A stretch of DNA of 10,634 nucleotides from Candidatus Rifleibacteriota bacterium (lineage in GTDB: Bacteria; Riflebacteria; Ozemobacteria; Ozemobacterales; Ozemobacteraceae), in contig JAKJFO010000140.1 in assembly GCA_022704885.1 (NCBI GenBank), forward strand, positions 1 through 10,634, written 5' to 3'. Of the stretch, positions 970-9,725 are shown in pieces; within the stretch, counting starts at the first letter, position 1, and each line of letters starts with the position of its first letter. The notes under the pieces are model-generated. The model ran no database searches. It was given only the letters and a program-made list of their open reading frames with translations, and had not been told where the DNA came from. The position numbers were made by a program, and so were the translations under genes.

Positions 970-1632
970 ATGACTACAATTACGCTTTCAATCTGGGTTG
1001 GTGCATTCATCACCCTGTGCTGTTTCAGCTTTCTGATCAAGGATAACCCGTTCTATCGCTTTGCCGAACACCTGTTCGTCGGCGTTTCGGCTGGTTATTA
1101 TTTCTCGCTGATTTCTTTCCACCAGGTTCTCAAGCCGAACCTGCTGGCCAAAATCATGCCGGCATACTTTGCGACCGGTCAGGCTGCCAGTGCGCCGCCC
1201 GAATATTCTCTGCTGATACCCGGCTTTCTTGGCATTCTCATGCTGTTCAGGCTTTCTGCTTCATATTCATGGATCAGCCGTTTCACTGTCGCCTTCGTTA
1301 TGGGCGTATCGACCGGTCTGGCCATCGTTTATTCAACCCAGCAGTTCCTGATTCCGCAGGTTGCCAAGGCGATCAGACCTATCGTCGTCGCCGGCGATTA
1401 CTTTCAGAGCTTCTCAAATCTCGTGCTCGTAATTGGCTCGATCTCGTGCCTGTTCTACTTCTTTTTCAGCACCGAGCATCGTGGTCCGGTCTATGGCAAC
1501 GTCGCCCGCGTCGGCATCTGGTTTTTGATGATCAGCTTCGGCGCTTCGTTCGGCGCTACCGTCATGGGTCGTATTTCGCTGCTTATCGGCCGTTTCCAGT
1601 TTCTGTTGTCGGAATGGCTGAAGATAGTCTAG
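970..1632 (+). CDS. Polytopic membrane protein, unknown function
   Basis: This 220-residue protein is strongly hydrophobic, with about six predicted membrane segments near residues 5-23, 31-54, 79-97, 104-124, 148-166 and 181-207. The loop between segments 1 and 2 carries NPFYRFAEHLFVG, in which charged and aromatic residues flank a helix and could be functional. No transporter or enzyme signature is visible. The ATG follows the strong binding site AGGAGGG (954-960) with a nine-base gap, and that site overlaps the stop of the previous gene, so the two are translated together. By context it is an integral membrane partner of the ATPase encoded two genes downstream. Confidence 0.85.
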   Translation: MTTITLSIWVGAFITLCCFSFLIKDNPFYRFAEHLFVGVSAGYYFSLISFHQVLKPNLLAKIMPAYFATGQAASAPPEYSLLIPGFLGILMLFRLSASYSWISRFTVAFVMGVSTGLAIVYSTQQFLIPQVAKAIRPIVVAGDYFQSFSNLVLVIGSISCLFYFFFSTEHRGPVYGNVARVGIWFLMISFGASFGATVMGRISLLIGRFQFLLSEWLKIV

Positions 1633-1647
1633 TGGAGCGTTGATTCG

Positions 1648-1978
1648 ATGGGAATGTGGACGATTCCGAAAGAGCCGACGGAGGAACAGAAGTTTTCCGC
1701 CGCCGAACTCGACGAGTTTACCGCAGCTATTGCTACGGCTGTCTACGCCCGTCGCATGAGCGTTCCGGTCATCATGGCGCTCGAAATGGCCAAGCCGCTG
1801 TCCTTTCTGGGATACAGCAGTCTGGTCGTTTTCGGCCCAATTCTCGAAATGATAATCGACCCGGTCAAGATGGAAAAGTTTCAGGCGTTGCTGGCTGATC
1901 GTAGCCGGATCGAGCGCCTGATCGTCAGCATCGAAGACCTGGAAAAGTCTAAAACAGAAGACAAGGAAGGTGAATCAC

Positions 1979-1992
<14 letters not shown>
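1648..1992 (+). CDS. Small helical protein of the ATPase operon
   Basis: This 114-residue protein of no family I recognise has three parts. The acidic N-terminus (about 1-25) is soluble. The middle (about 36-71) is rich in Met, Ala, Pro and Leu and could lie in or against the membrane. The tail (about 72-114) is charged, probably helical, and ends in a Lys/Glu-rich stretch. The ATG at 1648 is preceded by GGAG (1634-1637); a second ATG at 1654 is possible but further from that site. Its last 14 bases overlap the start of the GlmL/MutL-like gene, which points to translational coupling and fixed stoichiometry with the ATPase. Confidence 0.75.
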
Positions 1993-3784
<1,792 letters not shown>

Positions 3785-3802
3785 GCGAAAGGACAATAAT
3801 CA

Positions 3803-4927
3803 ATGGCCAGTGCATATACCCCAGGTCTCAAAATCGTTGCAAGAACACTAGTCGAAAAAGACAGAAGACTGCCGCTCAAAGGCGACGTTCATGTTAAGAA
3901 GGGCGATCGCGTGACTGCCGAAACGGTAGTTGCCTCGACCAATCTGCCGGGAAACGTTTTTCCGGTTAATATAGCCAACATGCTTGGCTGCGAAGCCCGC
4001 GAAATTACTGATTTTCTCGTGAAAAAAGAAGGTGACCTTCTCGAAAAAGATGATGTCATTGCCGAAACTCAGGGTTTTTTCGGGTTTTTCAAAACTTTCG
4101 TGCGTTCACCAATCAAGGGAACAGTCGAAAGTCTTTCGACCGTAACCGGTCAGGCAATTCTGCGTGAACCGCCGATTCCGGTCGAAGTCCATGCCTATGT
4201 TGATGGCGTTATCGATGACGTATACCCTGAAGAAGGCGTTAAGGTAAATACCGCTGCGACTTTTATTCAGGGCATTTTCGGTATTGGGCCCGAAGTCATC
4301 GGCGATCTCAAGATGGCGGTAAATTCGCCTTCAGACGTTCTCGACAAAGACAACATCAAGCTTGAGCACAAAGGCAAGATCATTGTCGGCGGCTCTCTGG
4401 TAACAGCTGCCGCGCTCGACCGTGCTGTTGAACTCGGCGTCAAAGGCGTTATCGTTGGCGGTTATGATGCGCATGATCTTAAGGAATTCCTCGGATACGA
4501 TCTTGGCGTTGCCATCACCGGAACCGAAGACAAAGGCATAACTCTGGTCGTCACCGAAGGTTTCGGCAAAATCAATATGGCCAAAAAAACCTTCGATCTG
4601 CTCAAGAACGCCGAAGGCCGCAAAACCTCGATCAATGGGGCAACCCAGATTCGTGCCGGTGTTATCAGACCCGAAGTCGTTATTCCGCTGGCAGATGCCA
4701 ATATCGCCGATCAGAAGCATGCCGCCAACACCGGTATGACGGTAGGCACTCTGGTGCGCATCATTCGCCAGCCACATTTCGGCGAAGTTGCCAAAGTAGT
4801 TTCGCTGCCTGAAAAGCCGGTAATCATACCTTCAGAAGCCAAAGTGCGCGTTGTCGAAATTGAGACACTCAATAAAGGCGAAAAGATGATTCTGCCACGC
4901 GCCAACGTTGAAATAATCGAAGAATAA
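3803..4927 (+). CDS. Barrel-sandwich (RnfC-like) and KOW-like domain protein
   Basis: This 374-residue protein has no signal peptide and no membrane segment. The N-terminal part (about 20-165) has the alternating short strands and KGD/EEGxxV turns of barrel-sandwich hybrid domains (RRLPLKGDVHVKKGDRV, SPIKGTVESL, DGVIDDVYPEEGVKV), as in RnfC/NqrA N-termini. The biotin/lipoyl Lys motif is absent. The single Cys (63) rules out the RnfC iron-sulfur clusters. Residues 190-300 form an alpha/beta unit (GKIIVGGSLV, GVKGVIVGGYD, GITLVVTEGFG). The C-terminus (about 311-374) looks KOW/SH3-like (GTLVRIIRQPHFGEVAKVVSLPE). AAAGGA (3788-3793) lies nine bases before the ATG. It starts 18 bases after the ATPase gene, so it is a likely soluble adaptor of the same system (inference). 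Confidence 0.8.
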   Translation: MASAYTPGLKIVARTLVEKDRRLPLKGDVHVKKGDRVTAETVVASTNLPGNVFPVNIANMLGCEAREITDFLVKKEGDLLEKDDVIAETQGFFGFFKTFVRSPIKGTVESLSTVTGQAILREPPIPVEVHAYVDGVIDDVYPEEGVKVNTAATFIQGIFGIGPEVIGDLKMAVNSPSDVLDKDNIKLEHKGKIIVGGSLVTAAALDRAVELGVKGVIVGGYDAHDLKEFLGYDLGVAITGTEDKGITLVVTEGFGKINMAKKTFDLLKNAEGRKTSINGATQIRAGVIRPEVVIPLADANIADQKHAANTGMTVGTLVRIIRQPHFGEVAKVVSLPEKPVIIPSEAKVRVVEIETLNKGEKMILPRANVEIIEE

Positions 4928-4933
4928 GCCAAG

Positions 4934-6163
4934 ATGACAGAAAAATTCAAAGACATCGATCCCGAGCAGCTCAAGAAAGAGGTCAAAGAAGAGCTCATCA
5001 AACGCGAGATTCTCATGGGTCTCGAAGAAGATGAAATAGATCTTTTTGAGTTGTTCAGAGTGCTGCTTAAACACTGGAAGCTGGTAATCGTCATGCCCTT
5101 CGTGGTGGCAGTGCTGGTTGCCCTGTACAGTTTGACTCTGCCGAATCACTTCAAGGCGAGTTCGACGATATTCGTTCATTCAAACAGCAAGCTCAGTGCT
5201 CTCAGCAGCCTGCCGTTCGCCGGAATGATTCCGGGGCTTGGTGGCGGCGGTGGTGGCGCTGAATATCTTATGGCTTATCTTAAGAGCCGCACAATGAGCG
5301 CCCGTATTATCAAACGCTTTGGCATTGCGACCAACCCGGCAATCGTTGGTGAAAGTCCTGATGAAGAGATCAAATACGACGAGATACTCAAGATTGTCGA
5401 TAAGATTGTGTCAGTTGATAAAGACAAGGATGGTTTGATAACAATCTCTGCAGAGACGCTCTCTCCTGAAGTTTCAGCCGAGATTGCCGCTGCTTACGTC
5501 GAGTATCTCAGCAGCTTTGCCCGTGGGCCGCAGAAAGAGAAGCGAGTGTTTATCGAACAGCAGCTCGAAAAGGTAAGTAAAGAGCTCGAACTGGCAGAAG
5601 AAACTTTCAAAGCTTTTCAGGATAAACACCAGATGTTTGCTCTCGAACAGCAGGCTTCGAAGGTGATTGAGAAGTTGTCCAGGCTGGAAGCTGAAAAGGT
5701 TGAAGCTGGTGTCTCTCTGCAGATGCAGGAGAGTCTGCTCAAATCTTCTGGGAGTGTGCCTGAACTGGTGAAGATCGAAGGCCTGAAAGTCTCTGAAGAA
5801 GCTAAAATAGCCGCTCTCGAAAAGGAAATCGGTTCAACCGAAAAAGAAATCGCGCAACTGCCGCAGCTTGCTCTCGAATTCGCCCGCCTTCAGCGAAATC
5901 TAAAGGTCAAAGAAAAGGTGTTTGGCGTTCTGACCGAACAGCACGAAATGGCCAAAATAGCTGAAGCCGAAGAAGGCAGCCAGTTCGAAGTCATCGATGT
6001 GGCACGGGCTCCTGAACTTAAATCAAAACCACGCCGTTCAATCATGGTTATTCTGGCTGGTTTGAGCGCCGGCGTTCTGGGCGTGTTCGCAGCCTTTCTG
6101 ATCGAATTCATCCGTCGTCGCAAAGAACAGGAAGCGAAGCACGCCGCCCCGGCTGCCGCCTGA
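4934..6163 (+). CDS. Wzz-type polysaccharide chain-length determinant
   Basis: Wzz-family (polysaccharide co-polymerase) proteins sit in the inner membrane and set the length of O-antigen or exopolysaccharide chains. This 409-residue protein has the full layout: cytoplasmic head EIDLFELFRVLLKHWK (34-49), first membrane helix (about 50-70), periplasmic domain with a Gly-rich turn PGLGGGGGGAEYL (100-112), long coiled coil (about 185-340), Pro/basic motif APELKSKPRR before the second helix (about 370-392), then a basic, Ala-rich tail. No tyrosine-kinase domain is fused. The ATG lies six bases after the previous stop with no clear Shine-Dalgarno, suggesting translational coupling; an in-frame ATG at 5015 is a less likely start. 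It is the last gene before the terminator and links the upstream operon to glycan assembly. Confidence 0.92.
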   Translation: MTEKFKDIDPEQLKKEVKEELIKREILMGLEEDEIDLFELFRVLLKHWKLVIVMPFVVAVLVALYSLTLPNHFKASSTIFVHSNSKLSALSSLPFAGMIPGLGGGGGGAEYLMAYLKSRTMSARIIKRFGIATNPAIVGESPDEEIKYDEILKIVDKIVSVDKDKDGLITISAETLSPEVSAEIAAAYVEYLSSFARGPQKEKRVFIEQQLEKVSKELELAEETFKAFQDKHQMFALEQQASKVIEKLSRLEAEKVEAGVSLQMQESLLKSSGSVPELVKIEGLKVSEEAKIAALEKEIGSTEKEIAQLPQLALEFARLQRNLKVKEKVFGVLTEQHEMAKIAEAEEGSQFEVIDVARAPELKSKPRRSIMVILAGLSAGVLGVFAAFLIEFIRRRKEQEAKHAAPAAA

Positions 6164-6190
6164 TCTGTTCTAACTTCTGTAACAACGCGT

Positions 6191-6220
6191 AGGGGTTCAA
6201 CCTGTTGAACCCCTATTCTT
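6191..6220 (+). terminator. Rho-independent terminator after the wzz-like gene
   Basis: A perfect 10-bp stem, AGGGGTTCAA (6191-6200) with TTGAACCCCT (6205-6214), closes a four-base CCTG loop and is followed by ATTCTTTAT, a T-rich tract. It lies 27 bases after the stop codon and ends the operon that occupies the first 6 kb. Confidence 0.9.
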
Positions 6221-6290
6221 TATAAGATGATAATTGCAGAATCTTTGTTAAGAAAAATGGCTTTGTTTCCGCTGTTATTAATAGCACAAT

Positions 6291-6320
6291 GCTCGTGCTC
6301 GTGCTCGTGCTCGTAATCGT
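6291..6320. repeat. GCTCGT hexamer tandem repeat
   Basis: Four exact copies of GCTCGT (6291-6314) are followed by a degenerate fifth, AATCGT (6315-6320). They lie in the 222-base spacer between the terminator and the methyltransferase gene, about 30 bases upstream of a possible -10 box. The rest of the spacer is AT-richer than the flanking genes and shows no other feature I can support. Confidence 0.85.
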
Positions 6321-6349
6321 AAGAATCGCTTTCTCTCTGTTTTCGTGAT

Positions 6350-6355
6350 TATAAC
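6350..6355 (+). promoter_or_regulatory. Possible -10 box for the methyltransferase gene
   Basis: TATAAC matches five of six positions of the sigma-70 -10 consensus, 30 bases before the TTG start. No convincing -35 box sits at the right distance. An upstream promoter is expected because a terminator lies between this gene and the previous one. Confidence 0.3.
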
Positions 6356-6385
6356 AACTTTACAAAATAATGCAGGTGTTTCTCA

Positions 6386-8158
6386 TTGATCACATTATTT
6401 TCGTGGTTTAACAGCAGGATCGCAGCAACATACCAGACAACACATCGTCATTCTGCGCGACCTGTTCTTCGAAGCCTTGGCGAAGAAGAAAGTCGCAGAA
6501 TCCATCTTAAAGATTCATCCGATCCGCTGTCGCCTGCTGAAACGCTCCGCCGTCTCGGCGCTCCAGCTGAACTGGCGGACATCTTTACCTCACTGACTGA
6601 TTGTGAAGTAATTCTAAAAACTGCTGCTGATGGCGAAGTGCCAGACCTCGAGCGTCGCGAGAAAAAGCGTAAGCGCAGCACCGGGCAATTTTATACCCCC
6701 GAAGCCTTGGCAGAGAGGCTGGTGGGGATTGCAGAACCTGGATCAGCTGGCGATATTCTCGACCCGGCCTGCGGCGATGGCAGTTTTTTAATGGCTATGG
6801 CAAGGCATCTGGCGCAGAACAATACTCATTCGCAGATTACGCAGATGGCCGCAGATGAGAATGAAGGATTCTTAAGCCGCCTGCACGGTTTTGATATCGA
6901 TCTGCAGGCTTTGTTTATCTGCCTGACCCGCCTGATATGTGCTTTCCCTGGGTGTGGCTGGCCTGTGTTCGAGCATCGCGATTTTCTGATGAATCCGCCA
7001 GATCGGCGCTATTCTGTAATAATTGGCAATCCTCCATATCGCGTTAATCTTGACGATGCTTTTAAAAAGCGTCTGGCTGAGCTTTATGAGACAGGCGAGG
7101 GCGAGAAAGATTTATATACTTTTTTTATCGAGGGTAGCCTCAAGGCTTTGCAGCAGGGCGGTCGGCTTGTTATGCTGACTTCACATACCTATCTGGTGAA
7201 TCATCAGTGCAGCAAAATCAGACGGTTTATTTTTGCCGGCTATTACGCGCGGGCTCTTCTGCTTCTGCCGGCCAGATTCTTCGTGCTGGCTCCTGGCGTT
7301 CTGCCAGTCATTCTGGTTGCCGATGCCGAACAGCCACATGATGACAATCAGCTGAATATTTATACTGATTATATAGAAAAAGACGGCTGGGGCCAGTGTT
7401 ATCAGGCTTCGGCAAAGCTCTTTGAAGCAAGTAACGGCCTTCGCCAGGCGATAGTGCCACCGCAATTGCAGCAGGTTTTTGCCGATATGAACAGTTGCAG
7501 CCGGCTTGGCAGCCATTGCCGTGTCGGCGTCGGCATTCAGGAAGCCCTCAAGCGCGATGGCAAGATATCGCGTTACGTCAGCGACAAGAAGATATCGGCA
7601 ACATATAAGCGCGTTTTGCGTGGACGTGAGCTTGAGCCTTTCAAAATCAACTGGGAAGGCAACTATATCGATTATGGCCCGCATCTGGCCTATGGTGGCG
7701 ATGAAACAGTCTTTGCCGGGCCTAAAATTCTGTATCAGAATATTCGCAATGAGCGCCTCAAGATCAGGCTGGTAGCAGCTTACGACACTGAAGGCTTTTT
7801 TCCGAAAAATTCGCTTTCTTATATTCTTTCTGGATCAAAAGATTTCAGCGAGTGGTTTCTGCTGGGACTGCTCAACAGTCTATTGGTAAATGCCTGGTTC
7901 AGCGGCAATTTTCACAGCTTTCACATTACCGTCACGCAGGTGCGCCAGATTCCGTTTCCGACCTGCTCTGCGGCACTACGGCAAAAGATTGCCGAGTTGG
8001 CAGAGTTGTTAAGCCGAACTGCCGCCAGCACTGGAAAGTGGCAGAAGGCTTATGAGCAGCTGAATCTGCTGGTATGTGAGAGCTACCTTGGTGTCGGAGA
8101 TCATAAACAGCTGTTGACAACCTGTGATAATTTTCTTGATCAGGCCGCCGCATTATGA
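6386..8158 (+). CDS. TaqI/Eco57I-type adenine-N6 DNA methyltransferase
   Basis: The enzyme transfers a methyl group from S-adenosylmethionine to adenine N6 in a specific DNA site. Motifs of the gamma-type order are clear: STGQFYTPEALAERLV (98-113, motif X), DILDPACGDGSFL (123-135, AdoMet-binding motif I), FDID (169-172, motif II), HRDF (197-200, motif III) and catalytic NPPY (215-218, motif IV). The C-terminal half (about 375-560) resembles a TaqI-type target-recognition domain (RVLRGRELEPF, LLGLLNSLL, VRQIPFP). At 590 residues it is far shorter than fused type IIG restriction-methylation enzymes and shows no PD-(D/E)xK motif. No nuclease gene is adjacent, so it looks solitary. The start is TTG at 6386 with AGGTG (6374-6378) seven bases upstream; the frame has no ATG before the catalytic domain, and GTG at 6638 is the alternative start. 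The N-terminal 85 residues are atypical. Confidence 0.9.
   Translation: MITLFSWFNSRIAATYQTTHRHSARPVLRSLGEEESRRIHLKDSSDPLSPAETLRRLGAPAELADIFTSLTDCEVILKTAADGEVPDLERREKKRKRSTGQFYTPEALAERLVGIAEPGSAGDILDPACGDGSFLMAMARHLAQNNTHSQITQMAADENEGFLSRLHGFDIDLQALFICLTRLICAFPGCGWPVFEHRDFLMNPPDRRYSVIIGNPPYRVNLDDAFKKRLAELYETGEGEKDLYTFFIEGSLKALQQGGRLVMLTSHTYLVNHQCSKIRRFIFAGYYARALLLLPARFFVLAPGVLPVILVADAEQPHDDNQLNIYTDYIEKDGWGQCYQASAKLFEASNGLRQAIVPPQLQQVFADMNSCSRLGSHCRVGVGIQEALKRDGKISRYVSDKKISATYKRVLRGRELEPFKINWEGNYIDYGPHLAYGGDETVFAGPKILYQNIRNERLKIRLVAAYDTEGFFPKNSLSYILSGSKDFSEWFLLGLLNSLLVNAWFSGNFHSFHITVTQVRQIPFPTCSAALRQKIAELAELLSRTAASTGKWQKAYEQLNLLVCESYLGVGDHKQLLTTCDNFLDQAAAL
6447..6502. repeat. REP-like imperfect palindrome inside the methyltransferase start region
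   Basis: Nested arms pair as ATTCTGC (6450-6456) with GCAGAAT (6495-6501), GAC (6459-6461) with GTC (6492-6494), and TTCTTCG (6465-6471) with CGAAGAA (6481-6487) around a nine-base loop, giving 17 base pairs. The flanks GTCATTCTG and CAGAATCC recall a palindromic repeat dispersed in many bacterial genomes, often mis-translated as CHSERSEES-like peptides. Here the frame reads it as HSARPVLRSLGEEESRRIH. Confidence 0.65.
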
Positions 8159-8164
8159 TAAATT
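8136..8164 (+). promoter_or_regulatory. Predicted promoter of the fmdB-family gene
   Basis: TTGATC (8136-8141) and TAAATT (8159-8164) are separated by 17 bases, and TGA directly before the -10 supplies an extended -10 element. Each hexamer matches four of six consensus positions. The promoter overlaps the last codons of the methyltransferase gene. Its expected start point, near 8171, falls inside the CIRCE element, the usual arrangement for HrcA repression. Confidence 0.55.
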
Positions 8165-8165
8165 A

Positions 8166-8192
8166 TTAGCACTCTGATAAATCGAGTGCTAA
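8166..8192 (+). promoter_or_regulatory. CIRCE element (HrcA operator)
   Basis: TTAGCACTC (8166-8174), nine spacer bases and GAGTGCTAA (8184-8192) match the CIRCE consensus TTAGCACTC-N9-GAGTGCTAA at every conserved position. HrcA binds this site as a repressor of heat-shock operons such as groESL and dnaK. It sits 30 bases before the ATG of the fmdB-family gene and just after a plausible -10 box, so it would block transcription start and lie in the 5' leader. No chaperone gene follows in this window. Confidence 0.95.
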
Positions 8193-8222
8193 CTGTTTTT
8201 GTGCCCTCAGGAGGAAAGGTTC

Positions 8223-8588
8223 ATGCCAACCTACAGCTATAGATGTACAAAATGTAATTCAACATTTGACGCCTTTCATTCAATGTCGTGCAAAGATCCG
8301 CAGCACTGCCCTGATTGCGGCGGAGAAGGCACCAAGCTGCTTTCTGCCAGTTCGGTCATTTTCAAGGGCTCAGGCTTTTATTCAACCGACTACCGCGATT
8401 CCGGCTATCTCGAAGCCAAAAAGAAAGACGGTAACGGCACCAGCAAACCCGAAAGCAAGCTCGATTCATCAGTCACGCCCGCAGCAGACTCTTCCGCTCC
8501 AGCAAAAAAGGCTGAGACTCCAGCTGCGACTCAGGCGCCATCGACCCCCGCGCCGGTAAAAGCCGCCCCTACCGCCCAGGCCGCCTGA
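8223..8588 (+). CDS. FmdB-family zinc-ribbon protein
   Basis: The first 60 residues match the FmdB/CxxC_CxxC_SSSS zinc-ribbon family: MPTYSYRCTKC, zinc ligands C8, C11, C29 and C32 (with an extra C23), then the typical SSVIFKGSGFYSTDYR segment. The family was named for a putative regulator in a formamidase operon, but its biochemical role is unsettled. The 121-residue protein carries a long low-complexity tail (about 70-121) rich in Ala, Pro, Lys, Ser and Thr, presumably disordered. ATG 8223 is chosen because AGGAGG (8209-8214) lies eight bases upstream; an earlier in-frame codon at 8199 has no such site. A perfect CIRCE element directly upstream predicts induction by heat or unfolded-protein stress through HrcA. 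It appears to be a single-gene unit. Confidence 0.92.
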   Translation: MPTYSYRCTKCNSTFDAFHSMSCKDPQHCPDCGGEGTKLLSASSVIFKGSGFYSTDYRDSGYLEAKKKDGNGTSKPESKLDSSVTPAADSSAPAKKAETPAATQAPSTPAPVKAAPTAQAA

Positions 8589-8640: not shown

Positions 8641-8688
8641 TGTCACTGCGAGGAGACCCTGGTCGACGAAGCAGTCTCAAGGTTTTTT
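8641..8688. repeat. REP-like palindrome with trailing T-run
   Basis: ACTGC (8645-8649) pairs with GCAGT (8671-8675), and inner GACC (8655-8658) pairs with GGTC (8661-8664). The sequence TGTCACTGCGAGGAG...CGACGAAGCAGTCTCA resembles a dispersed intergenic repeat family often written TGTCATTGCGAGGAG...CGAAGCAATCTC. A run of six T (8683-8688) follows, so it might also help end fmdB transcription, although the stem is weak. The rest of the 198-base gap between genes holds only small hairpins (8714-8732 and 8756-8770). Confidence 0.55.
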
Positions 8689-8710: not shown

Positions 8711-8738
8711 TTTTCACCGGCGTCAGTGGTGATATCTT
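8711..8738 (+). promoter_or_regulatory. Weak candidate promoter for the SDR gene
   Basis: TTTTCA (8711-8716) and TATCTT (8733-8738) are 16 bases apart, with TGA before the -10 giving an extended -10 form. Each hexamer matches four of six positions. It is the best match I found in the spacer but could be chance. Confidence 0.25.
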
Positions 8739-8786
8739 TGCGCTAAAAAGCTTCGAAAACGCCGCGTTTTGTCGATAAACATAGGA

Positions 8787-9725
8787 ATGGCGGCGAAACC
8801 GACAATTTTAATGACCGGAACCTCTGGCTTTGCGGGCGGCAACATTGCTGCCTGGTTTTTGCATCGCGATTATAGAATCATTGCTCCTGGCAGGACGCGT
8901 CCAACTGATAACCGGCTTGAATTTCACCAGATTTCGCGTATAGATCGTTATACCTTCTGGGAAGACATGCTCAAAGATACTGATGTTGTCATTCACCTTG
9001 CCGGTCGAGCTCATCAGATGCGTGAAAAACCCGACTCCTATCATCTTTACTTTGAAACAAATTTTGATGGAACGGTTAATCTGGCTCGCCAGGCCGCAAA
9101 GCAGGGTGTAAAGCGCTTTATCTTTGTCAGCAGCATCAAAGCGATGATCAGTGACGCCTGCGAAACGGCGCTAACCGAGAACGCGCCCTGCAATCCTCTC
9201 GAACCCTATGGACAGTCAAAGCTCAAGGCCGAAATCGAGCTCAAAAAGATCAGCGAAGAAACCGGTATGGAACTGGTGATTCTGCGCCCGCCGCTTATTT
9301 ACGGCCCTGGAGTAAAAGGCAACTTCGAGAGTCTTGTCAGGCTGGTCAAAAATTTCAGCATTCTGCCGCTTGGTGGCCTGACCAATCGCCGCAGCCTGCT
9401 TGCCGTAGATAATCTTGCTTCGGCGGTCGAGACCGCCATGCTCAGCGAAAAAACACCCGGCAAAACCTATCTGCTCAGCGATGGCGAAGAAATTTCGACA
9501 ACTGAGCTGGTAACCCGCATAGCTGCTGTCTTCAACCCAGCCTGCCGCATCATATCTCTGCCTCAATGGCTCTGGCGCATCTGCTCAAAGATTCCACTTC
9601 TGTCCTTTAAAATCGCCCGCCTCGAAGGCTCTTTGCCTGTAGACTCAAGCCTCTTCACAACTGACACCAACTGGCAACCAGCAACCAGCATGCATCAACA
9701 GCTTTTGGGGATGGAAGATAGATAG
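8787..9725 (+). CDS. NAD-dependent epimerase/dehydratase, WbpV/GalE-like
   Basis: This is an extended short-chain dehydrogenase acting on nucleotide sugars. It has the Rossmann loop TGTSGFAGG (10-18, GxxGxxG), DVVIHLAGRAH (66-76), the VSSIK segment with the catalytic-site Ser (114-118), active-site YGQSK (Y141, K145), RPPLIYGPGVKGNF (167-180), and NRRSLLAVDNL (200-210). The last two recall WbpV/WreQ-type 4-keto reductases that make UDP-N-acetylquinovosamine, and related UDP-glucose 4-epimerases. The exact substrate cannot be fixed from sequence. The 312-residue start at ATG 8787 puts the first beta strand just after the N-terminus. Its binding site is poor (AGG too close), and TTG 8769 or ATG 8811 are alternatives. 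It precedes rfbF, consistent with a polysaccharide locus. Confidence 0.88.
   Translation: MAAKPTILMTGTSGFAGGNIAAWFLHRDYRIIAPGRTRPTDNRLEFHQISRIDRYTFWEDMLKDTDVVIHLAGRAHQMREKPDSYHLYFETNFDGTVNLARQAAKQGVKRFIFVSSIKAMISDACETALTENAPCNPLEPYGQSKLKAEIELKKISEETGMELVILRPPLIYGPGVKGNFESLVRLVKNFSILPLGGLTNRRSLLAVDNLASAVETAMLSEKTPGKTYLLSDGEEISTTELVTRIAAVFNPACRIISLPQWLWRICSKIPLLSFKIARLEGSLPVDSSLFTTDTNWQPATSMHQQLLGMEDR

Follow-up and report, generated by a model that had tools for sequence, protein, structure and literature searches.

What is a perfect CIRCE element, the candidate binding site of the repressor HrcA, doing directly before a small zinc-ribbon gene? In the accessible part of a survey of the delta-proteobacterial HrcA/CIRCE regulon, the operator has the same 18 specified bases as the one described here, groESL is its constant target, hrcA-grpE-dnaKJ a frequent one and rpoH a further one, but no FmdB gene appears (Rodionov, 2004; PMC545781). 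The stretch of DNA analysed here, 10,634 nucleotides of a Candidatus Rifleibacteriota contig that we refer to as the window, carries such an element ahead of a gene of the FmdB family (Table 1). An earlier reading made from the letters only (the sequence-only reading) had pointed out this arrangement, had predicted from it that FmdB-type proteins are part of the HrcA regulon in this lineage, and had seen in it a lead on a family without settled function. It had also stated that no chaperone gene adjoins, and indeed a Pfam scan of 10 window proteins gave no match to a chaperone family.

Table 1. Features in the window around the operator (positions are those of the window).
Feature	Position	Strand	Remarks
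Eco57I/TaqI-like N6-adenine methyltransferase gene, 590 aa	6386-8158	+	adjoins predicted ruc upstream; no recognised nuclease domain
Putative sigma-70 promoter TTGATC-N17-TAAATT	8136-8164	+	boxes 8136-8141 and 8159-8164, 17 bp apart; read by eye; 8/12 to consensus
Perfect CIRCE operator, candidate HrcA site	8166-8192	.	0 mismatches; same letters in the nearest genome (G001)
Shine-Dalgarno AGGAGG	8209-8214	+	8 bases before the ATG
Predicted ruc orthologue, FmdB-family zinc ribbon	8223-8588	+	profile matches, motif, alignment, structure model
Sugar epimerase gene, downstream	8769-9725	+	about 180 bp after predicted ruc

The gene starts with ATG at 8223, ends with a stop codon at 8586-8588 and encodes a protein of 121 residues that matches TIGR02605 ('FmdB family zinc ribbon protein') with 63.6 bits (cut-off 31.3) and PF09723 with 49.9 (cut-off 34.4), which bears out the family assignment of the sequence-only reading. 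The zinc ribbon (residues 1-40) contains cysteines C8, C11, C29 and C32 in a CxxC...CxxC arrangement and is followed by the motif KGSGFYSTDYR (residues 48-58; general form KGxGFYxxDxR) and by a hydrophilic, predicted disordered tail of 63 residues (59-121), 92% of which come from the set AEGKPQRSTDN. In a chosen alignment of 60 rows, C8, C11, C32, K48, G49, G51, F52, Y53, D56 and R58 are invariant and C29 is conserved in at least 90%. The structure model reaches pLDDT values of 84-88 (in blocks of ten) for residues 1-40 and of 49-57 for residues 41-121, where it shows no secondary structure; as expected, such a low-confidence, unstructured model fits disorder, although it is no proof of it. 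Taken together, these features fit the Ruc family, that is, a four-cysteine zinc ribbon of about 50 residues joined to a hydrophilic C terminus for which disorder is predicted. A profile match to one chain of PDB entry 2i13 (E 0.0003), which we take to be a designed zinc-finger protein, was read as a mere match of the cysteine pattern. A protein search returned 306 relatives, the best at 96%, and the named ones among the 120 relatives listed belong to Candidatus Riflebacteria, Rifleibacteriota or Rifleibacterium, with the exception of P0113 (Clostridiales).

The operator has the exact layout TTAGCACTC-N9-GAGTGCTAA, in full TTAGCACTC-TGATAAATC-GAGTGCTAA; its 9-bp arms pair perfectly, outer pairing ends there, and 30 bp separate it from the ATG. 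It is the sole match with up to three mismatches in the whole window, where shuffling predicts a mean of 0.01 (200 shuffles, one of them with a match). The claim that the operator sits on the start region of a promoter stands in so far as the putative promoter would place the transcription start within the left CIRCE arm; the promoter itself falls below the 9/12 threshold of our promoter scan, which listed no + strand site at 8136-8164, its + strand match lying at 8104-8131. The last codons of the methyltransferase gene upstream (stop codon 8156-8158) lie within the putative promoter. By eye, a similar promoter-like layout is seen in several relatives and is not obvious in G016 and G021, and the codons of the upstream protein can account for part of the conservation in this region.

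An hrcA gene, whose presence the sequence-only reading had asked to be confirmed, is present, judged by the nearest genome, G001, which serves as a proxy for that of the window and matches it at 92.5% from position 1521, where the compared G001 stretch begins, to 9704. The hrcA gene of G001 is recognised by the equivalog profile TIGR00331 (272.8 bits against 197.2). Our Riflebacteria sample comprised 39 genomes, 24 of them in one family (f1), and hrcA was detected in G001 and in 15 more of 22 f1 genomes. When up to three mismatches are allowed, G001 has two CIRCE sites: one identical to that of the window and before the same gene, the other, with one mismatch, before a groES-groEL-groES-groEL-hrcA-grpE string. 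The two successive groES-groEL pairs of this CIRCE-headed string, which includes hrcA and grpE, lie at 1091-6949 of the G001 locus L205 (G001:C12:93500-103500). Since the reversed control pattern gave three matches in G001 at the same stringency, only close matches were used. Over 36 genomes, up to three mismatches yielded 51 real matches and 18 control matches; the nine real matches with exactly three mismatches were dropped in view of these 18, a control count that takes all matches up to three mismatches together.

At up to two mismatches, the 22 f1 genomes contain 30 sites, of which 12 precede ruc-type genes and 16 groES/groEL (recognised by eye, with Pfam used in G001 only), one precedes a DUF2188 gene and one, at a contig edge in G004, repeats the groES site of that genome. 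The DUF2188 gene, found with a perfect CIRCE 25 bp upstream in G011 only (L010 1501-1786, G011:C30:12182), may be a third HrcA target. A tandem CIRCE in G036 was rejected as a new target, as it precedes a groES-like gene.

Does HrcA then control FmdB-type genes in general, as had been proposed? The family f1 holds 76 TIGR02605 matches in its 24 genomes, and we defined as Ruc-type those with [KR]GxGF after the zinc ribbon. This gives 18 genes, one per genome, with none found in six of the 24 genomes (another pattern gives 17 and misses G016). A CIRCE with at most one mismatch lies within 250 bp upstream of 12 of the 18 Ruc-type genes and of none of the 58 other matches, three of which have just 86-202 bp upstream; the best CIRCE match at these 58 genes has six mismatches. 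For this contrast the Fisher p value is 6e-10, which is optimistic because the genomes are related. All 18 f1 Ruc-type genes contain [KR]GxGFYxxDxR, as against 0 of 38 FmdB matches in other families of the phylum, 14 of which have a looser form of the motif and were counted among the Ruc-type rows of the tree described below. Nor does any of these 38 matches, from 14 of the 15 genomes of other families, carry a CIRCE, although hrcA is present in 10 of the 15. The expected conservation of CIRCE at orthologous genes is seen at 12 of the 18 f1 orthologues, one per genome, and the general form of the proposal gives way to a narrower one: most likely, the HrcA regulon of the Riflebacteria family f1 includes a single FmdB subfamily, the Ruc type.

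The distance from CIRCE to the ATG at the 12 f1 genes is 23-37 bp in eight, 77 bp in two, 168 bp in one and 2 bp in G003. At the G003 locus (L039/L259, G003:C24:470666) the interval from CIRCE to the start codon of ruc is short by some 30 bp, the Shine-Dalgarno sequence included, through either a real deletion or an assembly error. Eleven of the 12 genomes with CIRCE at ruc have a detected hrcA. The exception is G016, whose groEL contig stops before the place that hrcA occupies in its sister G021; we did not count G016 and G005, both lacking a detected hrcA, as counterexamples, since in both the groE contig stops short of where the gene would be expected. Six f1 ruc genes have no CIRCE. In two of them (G010 and G017, of one genus) hrcA is present, and the other four (G019, G022, G037 and G038) make up the genus g11, in which we found neither hrcA nor CIRCE at the retained ruc gene, two of these four genomes being just 69 and 78% complete. 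At the loci of G017 and G010 (L042 and L043) a different, imperfect inverted repeat around TGCACT can be seen by eye near the place of CIRCE.

This distribution also bears on whether the palindrome has a regulatory effect at all. A chance or relic palindrome, or one that acts only as a hairpin at the 5' end of the mRNA, is conceivable in that a perfect inverted repeat in a leader could fold in this way, and the control counts given above show how little weak sites mean. Such an origin is nevertheless highly improbable for an exact match, given that sites with at most one mismatch are expected 0.004 times per 5.4-Mb genome at equal base frequencies, that conservation covers the arms but not the 9-bp spacer, which differs between genera, and that the site is absent at ruc in the four g11 genomes, where hrcA was not found.

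Since all genes lie on the + strand and no convincing terminator follows the gene, the operator might instead serve another gene, either the epimerase gene through read-through or the upstream methyltransferase gene. One weak + strand terminator candidate is located at 8714, and a hairpin that precedes a run of T (8683-8688) was rejected because it folds no better than shuffled sequences (z -0.32). Within flanks of up to about 1.5 kb, some of them cut shorter by contig ends, an epimerase homologue is found at just three of the 18 f1 ruc loci and a methyltransferase homologue at 10, including the CIRCE-less G019; ruc is thus the constant partner of the operator. As the methyltransferase gene, moreover, lies upstream of the operator, we give hardly any credence to a role for the operator at either neighbour and retain ruc as its target. 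Further upstream, the window contains a MutL-type gene (PF13941) and, next after it, a gene whose RnfC_N match stays below the threshold (together 1970-4927); beside them lie three genes at 28-1992 that lack any Pfam match.

Beyond the phylum, the genome_contigs collection was scanned with a strict pattern (GCACTC-N9-GAGTGC, 4-34 bases, GG, 3-13 bases, start codon, codons for P-x-Y-x-Y-x-C), which found at least 119 stretches. Among the 80 CIRCE-FmdB loci listed, 79 are actinobacterial by record title and one (L102) comes from a Dehalococcoidia metagenome-assembled genome. The motif KGxGFYxxDxR is present in 78 of the 79 readable proteins among these listed loci; in L138 one residue of the motif is unread (X for F), and the protein of L094 is cut at the end of the locus. 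Of 296 genomes sampled from the phylum to which L062 (Streptomyces) belongs, 17 have the pair by the strict pattern, the seed included; of 301 sampled from the phylum of L102, one has it, namely the seed itself; and of the 39 genomes of the window's phylum, eight have it. The reversed control of the pattern found nothing in the samples of Actinobacteria, of the L102 phylum and of the window's phylum. The actinobacterial loci (Streptomyces, Micromonospora, Amycolatopsis and others) share with the window the CIRCE, the motif and a low-complexity tail. They differ in that their sites are mostly imperfect (a perfect 18/18 occurs in four of the 79 listed loci, and also in L102) and, by eye, in their Ser-rich tails and a motif ending in DSR instead of the DYR of the window.

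The phylogenetic tree (135 rows, 75 columns), built with the motif columns included and with CIRCE-less actinobacterial rows left out, has poor resolution, 67 of its 132 inner branches being open. The f1 Ruc-type genes form one group (SH-aLRT 98) and the 30 sampled CIRCE-bearing rows from beyond the phylum another (84). Within f1 the first-branching members, G011 and G018, bear a CIRCE, which favours a single gain of the site in this family followed by later losses. In the free tree, which is weak and based on few columns, the Ruc-type rows do not form one group; holding them together gave a tree 37 log units higher that was not rejected (p-AU 0.87), which is no proof of orthology.

The novelty of the link was overstated, and the hoped-for lead on function is already available in Ruc (Rv0991c) of Mycobacterium tuberculosis, for which HrcA control and a redox-dependent chaperone activity are in print (PMC7448276, PMC8557902). 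According to the parts of these papers available, HrcA directly represses ruc (Becker et al., 2020; PMC7448276), and the rv0991c-rv0990c operon is under direct HrcA control (PMC8557902). Ruc is described as largely disordered and as binding one zinc through its cysteines; it keeps luciferase from aggregating only once it has been oxidised or has lost its zinc, requires its tail for this holdase activity and aids refolding by DnaKJE (PMC7448276). Both proteins begin with a Cys4 zinc ribbon, VPTYSYE in the mycobacterium and MPTYSYR in the window, and the ribbon ends with AVGVVFKG and SASSVIFKG, respectively, the mycobacterial letters being translated from published primers. Both have a hydrophilic disordered tail (a predicted one in the window) and an HrcA site, or candidate site, in the control region. 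In the mycobacterium, however, a SigH site overlaps the HrcA site and ruc heads an operon with rv0990c, as far as the accessible text goes (PMC7448276, PMC8557902), whereas the window has a conjectural sigma-70-like promoter and an epimerase gene as the next one downstream. In the accessible parts of the papers examined, oxidation-activated chaperone activity was measured for one Ruc member only, the mycobacterial one.

The term CIRCE occurs in the accessible main text of neither PMC7448276 nor PMC8557902, FmdB is not mentioned in that of PMC7448276, and the accessible part of PMC9004370 mentions neither FmdB nor zinc. Our literature search, in which Riflebacteria and HrcA were never paired directly, found no paper that joins CIRCE, HrcA and FmdB and none that describes this operator at a riflebacterial FmdB gene. 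As the arrangement is known for mycobacterial Ruc, our results extend a known link to another phylum and do not introduce a new kind of system. New are the second phylum, the restriction to one paralogue, the absence of the operator in genomes where no hrcA was detected, and a motif by which Ruc-type proteins can be told from other FmdB proteins.

We consider it likely that the gene is the Riflebacteria orthologue of ruc, repressed by HrcA, released upon heat together with GroESL and encoding a holdase that acts upon zinc loss. Bound to the CIRCE at the presumed transcription start, HrcA would repress ruc jointly with the groESL-hrcA-grpE operon. HrcA is inactive when GroEL is occupied by misfolded protein; heat or misfolded protein would thus cost HrcA its activity, and Ruc would be made. 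By analogy with the mycobacterial protein, reduced, zinc-bound Ruc would be idle, and oxidation would release the zinc and turn Ruc into a holdase for unfolded proteins that feeds Hsp70. Alternatively, HrcA could control a gene whose product is not a chaperone but stores zinc, senses redox state or acts as an adaptor for a chaperone or protease, in which case the tail would be a flexible linker; the evidence for regulation is independent of function, and the accessible part of the mycobacterial study reports neither a strong virulence defect of the ruc mutant in mice nor a need for Ruc in the oxidative stresses tested (PMC7448276). We think this rather unlikely, as the window protein shares its conserved residues, the character of its tail and its predicted regulon with a holdase whose activity was measured and found to depend on oxidation and to require the tail (PMC7448276, in the part available), and we keep to the chaperone as the favoured product.

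The findings suggest that the HrcA-Ruc link is no mycobacterial or actinobacterial peculiarity, but recurs gene-specifically in an uncultured phylum. We are slightly more doubtful than confident that ruc came under HrcA control independently in Actinobacteria and in one Riflebacteria family, in both cases in the one FmdB subfamily that combines KGxGFYxxDxR with a disordered tail, and that this control was lost along with hrcA in g11. Were this the case, the motif would mark the true chaperone branch of FmdB, and most other paralogues would act otherwise. The combination of KGxGFYxxDxR, a disordered tail and an upstream CIRCE provides a sequence rule for telling the Ruc-type from the other FmdB proteins of a genome, and with this rule the claim of chaperone activity can be put to the test on another protein, only distantly related to the first.
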